64,000 nt of DNA, taken from Planctomycetota bacterium (GTDB lineage Bacteria > Planctomycetota > Planctomycetia > Pirellulales > UBA1268). The position numbers were made by a program, and so were the translations under genes. The stretch is from assembly GCA_016872555.1 (NCBI GenBank), contig VGZO01000002.1, forward strand, positions 1 through 64,000. The letters are read 5' to 3'. The first letter of the stretch is position 1. Every line of letters begins with the position of its first letter. This document shows, piece by piece, positions 2,221 to 4,205 of the stretch. The notes beneath the pieces were generated by a model. That model was not told the DNA's origin, ran no database searches, and worked only from the letters and a program-made list of their open reading frames with translations.

Positions 2221-2693
2221 GTCTTGGGCTGTCGCGCGCGGTCGATCGCCGGTGTCGGATTGATGTCCAGGACCCGGTTGCCGCGTCGATCACGTTCGAT
2301 CCGGGGGGACTGCTGGCGGGGGGCGGCATCCCGCAAGTAGTGTACGGGCGATCACTCTCCCCGTCCACTCGCCGCTCTGCCCATGGTCGCTGCATTCTGC
2401 GGATTTTCCGCGCGGCCCAGCCTCCGGCCGCATGCCGGCCCGGCACCACGCCGCCGCTACGAGCGTCGCCGCCCCGAGAAGACTCCCCTCCACAAGATCA
2501 TCTCCGAGAACCTCGCGAGCTGGCTCGGGTGGCGTGACGTGGCGGAGCGTCCCGTGCCGGGCTACGTCGAGGAGGAACTCCGCGGGTATCTCGAGTGCGG
2601 CATCCTCTGCTTTGGGTTCGGCCGTGCCCCCTGCACGGGCTGCGGCCAGGGGTTTGTGATCGCGTTCCCGTGCAAGGGGCGCGGGGTTTGTTC

Positions 2694-2793
2694 GGCCCGG
2701 CTGAGCCGGGCTCGGTAGCCATGGGAACCCTTGGCGTTCCCATCGGCTGCCAGGCAGGACGGGGCCATGGATGGCCCGCCCTGCCTGTGGCTA
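2694..2793 (+). repeat. Three-hairpin palindromic element, copy 1
   Basis: Three consecutive hairpins interrupt the IS91 transposase. Hairpin a: 7-bp stem GCCCGGC/GCCGGGC (2695-2711) with a 3-nt loop. Hairpin b: AGCC then ATGGGAAC (2717-2728), 7-nt loop CCTTGGC, GTTCCCAT (2736-2743), one bulged C, GGCT. Hairpin c: CAGGCAGG (2751-2758) pairing with CCTGCCTG (2780-2787) around the core GGGCCATGGATGGCCC. The tetramer GTTC occurs at 2690-2693 and 2794-2797 and could be a target duplication. The insert adds an in-frame TAG. Confidence 0.7.
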
Positions 2794-3432
2794 GTTCCGC
2801 CGGTGCCCGTGCGACAGTGGGTGATCTCCGTGCCGAAGCGATTGCGGGGCTTTCTCGCCGACCGGCACCGAGCCGTCGCCGCCGTCACGAAGATCTTTCT
2901 TGACGAGATCGTGCGGACTCTGATCACGGCCTCAGGCTGCTGCGCCTCCCCGGCGTTCCTGCCCGCCCACCCGATCAACCAGGCCGATCTGGCCGCGCTC
3001 ACCGAGCGGGTCCGCCGCCGCGTGATCCGCTTTCTTCAGGCTCACTCGCCTGCTCGGCACCGCTGCCGCCGCCGACATGCTCGCCTGGGAGAACAGCGGT
3101 TTTTCAGTCGATGCCGGTGTTCGGATCACGCTCAATAGACCGCGACGTGCCGAGCTATTTTCGGAGCTTGGAGCACCTGCTGCGCTCTTGCGCCCGGCCA
3201 CCCTTCGCGCTGGAGCGACTCTCCGTGAGCCGCGGTGCAGACGGCCAGATCGCCCGCATCCGCTACGTGCTGCCCAGACACTGGGTCACCATTTGGGCCG
3301 CCAACTGGGTCGGGCCGGGCCGCTCGCGCAAGTCCACGCGGCCGGGGGCCAATGGCGTCGTCGACCTCTCGCCGTTTGAGTTTCTCGACCGGCTCGCCGA
3401 TCTCGTGCCGCCGCCGCGCAAGCACCGGCACA

Positions 3433-3530
3433 GGCCAGCCGGAGGCTGGCGTTGGCGGTCGAGCCAAACCTCGGCTTTGGCTCCGACCGCCCGAGGCGGC
3501 AGGGGCCATGGATGGCCCTGCTGCCGTGAA
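3433..3530 (+). repeat. Three-hairpin palindromic element, copy 2
   Basis: It has the same plan as copy 1 with different stem bases. Hairpin a: GCCAGCC/GGCTGGC (3434-3450), 3-nt loop GGA. Hairpin b: GGTC then GAGCCAAA (3457-3468), 7-nt loop CCTCGGC, TTTGGCTC (3476-3483), one bulged C, GACC (3485-3488). Hairpin c: CGGCAG (3497-3502) with CTGCCG (3521-3526) around the same core GGGCCATGGATGGCCC. It lies between the transposase segments ending HRHR and beginning VFAPNHK, and shifts the frame. ACAGGCCAG (3430-3438) and ACAAGCCAG (3531-3539) flank it. Confidence 0.72.
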
Positions 3531-3802
3531 ACAAGCCAGGGGTGTTTGCACCCAACCACAAGCTCAGGCGGGCCGTGACGGCGCTGGCGATCGGAAACGT
3601 CGGAAACCGCCAAGAGGCGGTGACCGGCGGGCATGGGGGCGACGGTCATGCCACGGAAGGCTGCTGCGACGCAAATCCGAATCACAAGCCCCGCTCGCAC
3701 GACACGTCTCGGATTGCCTGGGCCAAGCTGATGGCCCGGGTGGGGGAGGAGTTTCCACTTGCGTGCCCCACCTGCGGCGGCGACATCCGGCTCAGAGAAG
3801 AC

Positions 3803-3876
3803 GGCCGGCAGGAGCCGGCTCACTTCGAACCGGAGGTTCGCAAGCGGGCGAAGGCCAGGATGGCTTCGCCCGCTTG
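3803..3876 (+). repeat. Three-hairpin palindromic element, copy 3 (diverged)
   Basis: Hairpin a: GCCGGC/GCCGGC (3804-3819), loop AGGA. Hairpin b: CTT then CGAAC (3823-3830), loop CGGAG, GTTCG (3836-3840), one bulged C, AAG. Hairpin c: a 13-bp stem CAAGCGGGCGAAG (3841-3853) with CTTCGCCCGCTTG (3864-3876) closing on GCC-AGGAT-GGC, close to the core of copies 1 and 2. It sits just after the C-terminal zinc motif of the IS91 transposase. GAAGAC (3797-3802) and GAAGTC (3876-3881) flank it. It is shorter than the other two. Confidence 0.6.
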
Positions 3877-4205
3877 AAGTCAGCCTCTCGCACACCTCGG
3901 CGAGCCACTCGAGCCGCCTCCCGTCTCTCCCGCCCGTGGCCCGCCGATCGACAGGGAGAGCTCGTGCAGTTCCATGACGACCGGGCAATCTTTCAGGGAC
4001 GGATAGACGAGCTGCCCGTGATCGACATCCACAGCCTCTGACCGGCGTCGGACGCGAGGCGTCGAAGCCCCGGGAACGGCCGACTGGGACGCGGTCTGCA
4101 CAGACGCCAGAAGAACGCCACCGAAGCGGGTGCGGGGCGTTTCGAGAAACCCGCTCCGGACGCCCGGGCCGCTCCTCCCGAGGCTCACGAGTCGCTCATC
4201 AGCCG

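Follow-up and report, generated by a model that had tools for sequence, protein, structure and literature searches.

A hairpin repeat family of lake planctomycetes and its three probable old insertions in an IS91 transposase relic

What are the three strongly palindromic blocks that interrupt a decayed IS91 transposase gene in a planctomycete genome, and how did they come to lie there? The window (the whole 64-kb stretch of DNA that was analysed) carries them at positions 2694-2793, 3433-3530 and 3803-3876, where the initial annotation had described three copies of a single three-hairpin plan. At these positions, we indeed found blocks that fold far better than their shuffles, both as DNA (z = -4.9, -4.3, and -6.7 for copies 1 to 3) and as RNA (z = -4.1, -4.8, and -4.9). 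Copies 1 and 2 have three hairpins in common: hairpin a; hairpin b, which has two stems, a single bulged C, and the loop CCTYGGC; and hairpin c, in which a G is bulged and the apex reads GCCATGGATGGC. The single plan thus holds for these two copies but not for copy 3, in which a short GAACCGGAGGTTC hairpin takes the place of the bulged hairpin b. Similarly, the bulged C and the loop of hairpin b were as described, but its stems, at 7 to 8 bp each, are longer than had been reported. The shared sequence is far beyond chance, as CCATGGATGG occurs twice in the 64-kb window against an expectation of 0.09.

Table 1. Positions of the hairpin elements and their host gene in the window.
Feature	Positions	Strand	Evidence
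IS91-family (Y2 HUH) transposase relic hosting the three inserts	2341..4038	+	tblastn, intact 547-aa relative L286
Copy 1, hairpin a (GGCCCGGC-TGA-GCCGGGCT)	2694..2712	+	folds
Copy 1, hairpin b (two stems, bulged C, loop CCTTGGC)	2714..2751	+	folds; R2
Copy 1, hairpin c (bulged G, apex GCCATGGATGGC)	2752..2786	+	folds; R2
Copy 1, right-end CTAG, as in other family members	2791..2794	+	sequence; family right ends
Copy 2, hairpin a (GCCAGCC-GGA-GGCTGGC)	3434..3450	+	folds
Copy 2, hairpin b (bulged C, loop CCTCGGC)	3454..3491	+	R2
Copy 2, hairpin c (apex GCCATGGATGGC)	3495..3525	+	fold; R2; same insert at same IS91 site in L141
Copy 3, hairpin a (GGCCGGC-AGGA-GCCGGC)	3803..3820	+	folds
Copy 3, short second hairpin (CGAACCGGAGGTTCG) replacing hairpin b	3826..3840	+	fold; R2
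Copy 3, hairpin c (apex GGCCAGGATGGC)	3841..3876	+	fold; R2; similar insert in L149
Copy 3, right-end TCAG (family NYAG)	3880..3883	+	sequence; family ends

The blocks were also recovered with a covariance model, R2, that was built from 20 sequences of other genomes and contained none from the source genome; because these 20 had been gathered via a first model that included copies 1 and 2, the test is not fully independent. R2 matched copy 2 (3454-3536, E = 3.1e-21), copy 1 (2714-2795, E = 1.8e-15), and copy 3 (3826-3884, E = 1.7e-7), and nothing else in the 64-kb window was significant, the next-best match having E = 0.08. A plain blastn search from an unrelated locus likewise returned copies 1 and 2 (E = 4.8e-8 and 1.3e-5). 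The short words GTTC, ACA, and GAAG that flank the three copies, which had been proposed as target duplications, turned out to be nothing of the kind, since CTAGCCCC, and not the CTAGTTCC of the window, comes after an identical copy 1 on contig 118, and the GAAG to the right of copy 3 belongs to the end of the element itself. Family members have NYAG/CTAG as the tetranucleotide at their ends.

Even apart from the three inserts, the host gene is a decayed relic. Aligned by tblastn to its intact relative L286, the relic falls into pieces covering residues 1-271, 269-302, 303-422, 401-534, and 521-547 in three frames, with further frameshifts near 3035 and 3134 that are independent of the inserts. 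Intact IS91 homologues of 545 to 548 aa exist in the family (L286-L289, L312) and carry no hairpins. Compared with these, the relic lacks host sequence at each insert (by our count from the alignment, about 58 nt at copy 1, 10 at copy 2, and 37 at copy 3), a gap that may reflect later decay or a different mode of insertion, and no clean target duplication is seen. We can also dismiss the proposal that splicing or bypass of the inserts at the RNA level lets the host gene be read, a reading to which we leave practically no probability. The frame is indeed unchanged across copy 1 (ORFs 2383-2718 and 2731-3138), but the gap at that copy takes out the final Cys of the CPSC motif, insert 1 contains a stop, copy 2 shifts the frame, and the intact relatives have no insert; with host codons missing and independent frameshifts present, removing the inserts cannot restore an intact frame.

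Copies 1 and 2 appear to have a history in common with their host. Because copy 1 recurs, identical, in the second IS91 relic on contig 118, and the copy 2 insert occupies the same position of IS91 in a different genus (L141), we conclude that both travelled with IS91. At the copy 3 site, three other genomes carry a different, reversed three-hairpin insert (L293:1200-1290, L310:330-420, and L298:1186-1260), and this site in IS91 is a repeatedly hit target. Across the family, matches to the IS91 profile PF04986 break recurrently at about 32, 103-105, and 142-145, which suggests repeated sites of insertion or deletion in relics across genera.

A covariance-model search, as advised by the initial annotation, revealed many further copies in the source genome and its relatives. 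Model R1 gave at least 113 matches in the source genome at E <= 10 and at least 93 at E <= 0.01, and at least 85, 74, and 135 matches in the relatives G001, G006, and G008, respectively; all these copy numbers are lower bounds, as the search scores 150 candidates per genome. The exact 14-mer GGCCATGGATGGCC matched the source genome 8 times, against 0 control matches. Among the 30 genomes searched, matches occurred in 16 of the 19 that belong to one planctomycete family and in none of the 11 from other families of the same order, while a class-wide sample of 118 genomes (117 besides the source) gave a single match outside the source genome. An exact-pattern scan of a genome collection returned mostly lake planctomycete metagenome-assembled genomes (MAGs) labelled Planctomycetaceae or Planctomycetota. 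Several element-bearing MAGs carry the label Candidatus Kuenenia stuttgartiensis, and the repeats that they have in common suggest that these labels are wrong. Six loci compared with 4227 Rfam families gave no match other than an implausible mir-598 at E = 0.18, and our literature search on such planctomycete repeats found only a survey of GTAG REPs (PMC3733652). This is an undescribed hairpin repeat family that is confined to one family of lake planctomycetes and present in about a hundred copies per genome.

Many of the matches in the source genome form tandem arrays with a period of 102-152 at contig ends (C1:211142-211433; C3:1-300 and 154146-154350; C9:32-217; C23:61-265; C52:24413-24686; C58:50-238; C70:14186-14392; C82:57-253). 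Such arrays are not merely assembly artefacts, since they are also found inside contigs of relatives (e.g., G006:C11 72769-73166, period 105). The contig-end arrays probably break the assembly.

The main subtype of the family, in its cleaner copies, measures 119 bp and runs from NYAG and CAGNCYGTGGANAAAG through hairpins 0, a, b, and c to CTTTTTCCACGGACAG and a second NYAG, where CAGNCYGTGGANAAAG and CTTTTTCCACGGACAG are 16-bp terminal inverted repeats that were not found in the IS91 copies. Like a MITE, it is short, has no coding capacity, and reaches high copy number. Among 62 full elements, 20 have the same 4-mer on both sides, where 8.1 would be expected and shuffles reached at most 17, and in the source genome alone the first flanking base matches in 22 of 35 cases, compared to 9.1 expected. 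Filled and empty sites, a comparison that had been suggested at the outset, could be contrasted directly by searching the sister species G001 with queries made of the joined flanks. At one site (L095), the source genome reads TCAG-element-TCAG where the empty G001 allele has one TCAG; at another (L108), the empty allele has one CTAG; and at a third (L092), it has one GTAG at the stop codon of a gene, with diverged sequence on the right-hand side. Two further sites (L082 and L074) are occupied in both species. The main subtype thus inserts with a 4-bp duplication of CTAG/NYAG.

The elements are modular, as BOX elements are: in G008, either hairpin b or hairpin c can be exchanged whole for another, and the number and combination of modules vary. 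In L329, L340, and L351, as compared to L323 and L315, part of the hairpin b loop is swapped (CCCTCGGC for GCCAGCCGG...CCCTCGACGGGGGC) in elements that otherwise match, which points to module exchange. A minimal derivative at L344 (G008:C230, about 59650), TTAG-CAGGCTGTGGATAAAGTGCATGGAGGACTTTTTCCACGGGCAG-CTAG, retains only both ends and what is left of hairpin c.

The stems behave differently between lineages and within one genome. In the alignment from other genomes, 21 of 27 pairs show two-sided changes, with 139 two-sided cells against 4 one-sided cells that keep a standard pair, and the covariation score is 0.674, compared to at most 0.19 when the partner is slid by one column; alignment A2 gives the same picture. 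Both G-T and A-C are rare between lineages (5 and 4 among 537 cells). By contrast, 35 main-subtype copies within the source genome display 40 one-sided changes and a single two-sided one. The G-T (16) and A-C (1) changes among the one-sided ones are concentrated in few columns, and the G-T excess could hint at some RNA role. The compensatory change that had been taken as selection on structure is therefore present between lineages but nearly absent among the genome's own main-subtype copies. A plain reading is that palindromy is selected in source elements, or restored via whole-hairpin swapping, while landed copies decay freely. Since changes are two-sided between lineages and one-sided within copies, folding appears to be selected in the source copies only, and the whole-hairpin swaps in G008 imply that part of the compensation is replacement rather than stepwise point change.

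A second subtype, which is closest to the IS91 copies, has no left inverted end and terminates in GAAA-NYAG. In 44 of 87 right flanks, a coding-like ORF running on the opposite strand has its stop codon exactly at the end of the element, compared to 3 of 75 left flanks, a rough control only, as the left boundary is not defined; the main subtype adjoins stop codons in 22 of 97 right and 6 of 87 left flanks. Of the 44 stop-adjoining genes, 25 encode a protein that ends in F or Y, giving a preferred site TWC-TGA/TAG. An association with outer-membrane proteins, considered on account of this C-terminal F/Y, was rejected because these ordinary-looking genes include some that, on our reading of the sequences, encode a PfkB-type kinase, DnaB, MutS, YchF, and topoisomerase VI-like proteins. 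A target preference for TWCTGA/TWCTAG is the simpler account of the C-terminal residue, and as the strand opposite NYAG reads CTRN and stop codons are TRN, target preference suffices to explain the placement. Copies of this subtype can also sit at the ends of longer mosaic blocks. In different genera, it lies 3' of the same gene families, namely, a porin-like protein ending IWQF/IVQF (L156, L154, L146, L152, L045), a Cys-rich small protein ending TYVGF/TYIGF (L139, L054, L183), a protein ending FIDVEVAF (L240, L052), and a topoisomerase VI-like protein ending DWLD (L155, L057).

Which machinery could move such an element? One candidate account is that these are REP/REPIN sequences, hairpins moved by an IS200-like RAYT (Y1 HUH) enzyme that recognises GTAG and a bulged hairpin. 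The bulged hairpins, the NTAG beside the ends, and the tandem clusters fit this account, and GTAG REPs have been reported from planctomycetes (PMC3733652). However, a search for a RAYT-type partner, as advised by the initial annotation, found none: the source genome, its element-rich sister G001, and six other genomes with matches contain no Y1_Tnp, whereas G004 has four Y1_Tnp but one element. Moreover, the unit has inverted ends and a length of 119 bp, compared to 20-40 bp for a REP, and its tetranucleotide is variable and duplicated on both sides instead of being a fixed GTAG (or CGTC) tag; IS200-type insertion is not known to give a two-sided target duplication. By the two features tested, a RAYT gene and a fixed tag without duplication, the family is not a REP, and we regard this origin as very unlikely. 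Other partners were sought as well, and as all the genomes are draft metagenome assemblies, these absences, that of Y1_Tnp included, are weak negatives: a DUF772/IS1182-like transposase is absent from the element-rich genomes, and 40 loci around matching ends in G008 showed no clear IS-length element, only MITE-size elements, deletion derivatives, and unresolved ends (drafts lose repeats). Pairs of terminal inverted repeats listed by pattern were mostly of MITE size, with two pairs lying 570-723 bp apart, and no IS partner emerged.

The elements might instead serve the host as RNA, that is, as 3' untranslated structures (terminators or mRNA stabilisers) selected beside gene ends. The placement of the second subtype directly behind stops in one orientation, its recurrence at the same gene families in different genera, and the high stability of the hairpins speak for such a role. 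Yet, the near absence of G-U pairs between lineages is unlike typical RNA covariation, individual main-subtype copies decay without compensation, insertions are polymorphic between species, many copies lie away from gene ends, and the NYAG (CTRN) target preference already accounts for the stop codons, which together leave this account improbable. The same placement behind stops, along with the tandem arrays and a conserved structure of variable stems and conserved bulges, would also suit integron-like attC sites acted on by a tyrosine recombinase. We hold this to be extremely unlikely, as the elements are dispersed rather than set in cassette arrays, make a 4-bp duplication, and display no RYYYAAC core at their consensus ends as far as can be read from the sequence.

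We conclude that the three blocks are very probably old insertions of a non-autonomous, MITE-like multi-hairpin mobile element. A small mobile palindromic family had been suspected from the blocks themselves, and the numerous further copies in this and related genomes, together with the empty sites in a relative, bear this out. The main subtype of the element lands at CTAG or NYAG, duplicating those 4 bp, and would be moved in trans by an enzyme yet to be found. During transposition, the hairpins might be recognised in folded DNA, either single-stranded or cruciform, a notion to which we give about even credence. The IS91 copies would belong to a variant without the left inverted end and would occupy a multicopy dead transposase gene, where insertion does no harm, copies 1 and 2 having later spread together with IS91. 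A bolder and rather doubtful version is that this is a new type of transposition, in which the enzyme reads folded DNA by several bulged hairpins that covary and yet duplicates its target with a 4-base stagger, the NYAG/CTRN targets steer it to stop codons that the duplication keeps intact, and one branch has settled in several genera as a fixed module at gene ends.

These results add a family of hairpin transposons that has about a hundred copies in each genome, with recent insertions for which empty sites exist. With structure kept between source lineages and lost in individual copies, the family offers a natural experiment on repeat folding, and this pattern tells selection for transposition apart from selection for a role in the host, a question long disputed for REP-like repeats. 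The 4-base target and the inverted ends provide a handle for hunting the missing enzyme, and the arrays serve as a warning that these repeats disrupt planctomycete assemblies.

Among known systems, the element is MITE-like by its structure, duplication, and empty sites, BOX-like by its modularity, and RUP-like in hitting transposase genes. The pneumococcal RUP is 107 bp long, occurs in about 100 copies per genome, has inverted ends and a TA-containing target, and often lies within IS transposase genes (PMC2229807), and thus resembles the 119-bp lake element in size, copy number, ends, the TA in its target, and insertion into an IS transposase. RUP ends match IS630-Spn1, whereas the lake element is without a known partner, is GC-rich, and is built of separate hairpins with conserved bulges. 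The BOX elements of streptococci also consist of modular hairpin units whose number varies in tandem arrays, with a mobiliser that is not proven (PMC3049150); we claim no sequence relationship; sequence and host phylum differ, and the lake element swaps whole hairpins, which covary. REP/REPIN sequences share with it the short bulged palindromes, the NTAG motif, the clusters, and the occurrence in planctomycetes (PMC3733652) but differ from its 119-bp compound unit with a four-base duplication and no RAYT in this genus's element-rich genomes. Rickettsia palindromic elements are palindromic repeats of similar size (105-146 bp) that also lie inside genes (PMC2229807), in frame in living genes, however, while the IS91 host is dead and frameshifted and its inserts carry stops. 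Last, Correia and other TA-ended bacterial MITEs have inverted ends, a hairpin, a duplication, and intergenic spread in common with the lake element, which is set apart from them by its four-base NYAG/CTAG target and its multi-hairpin interior.
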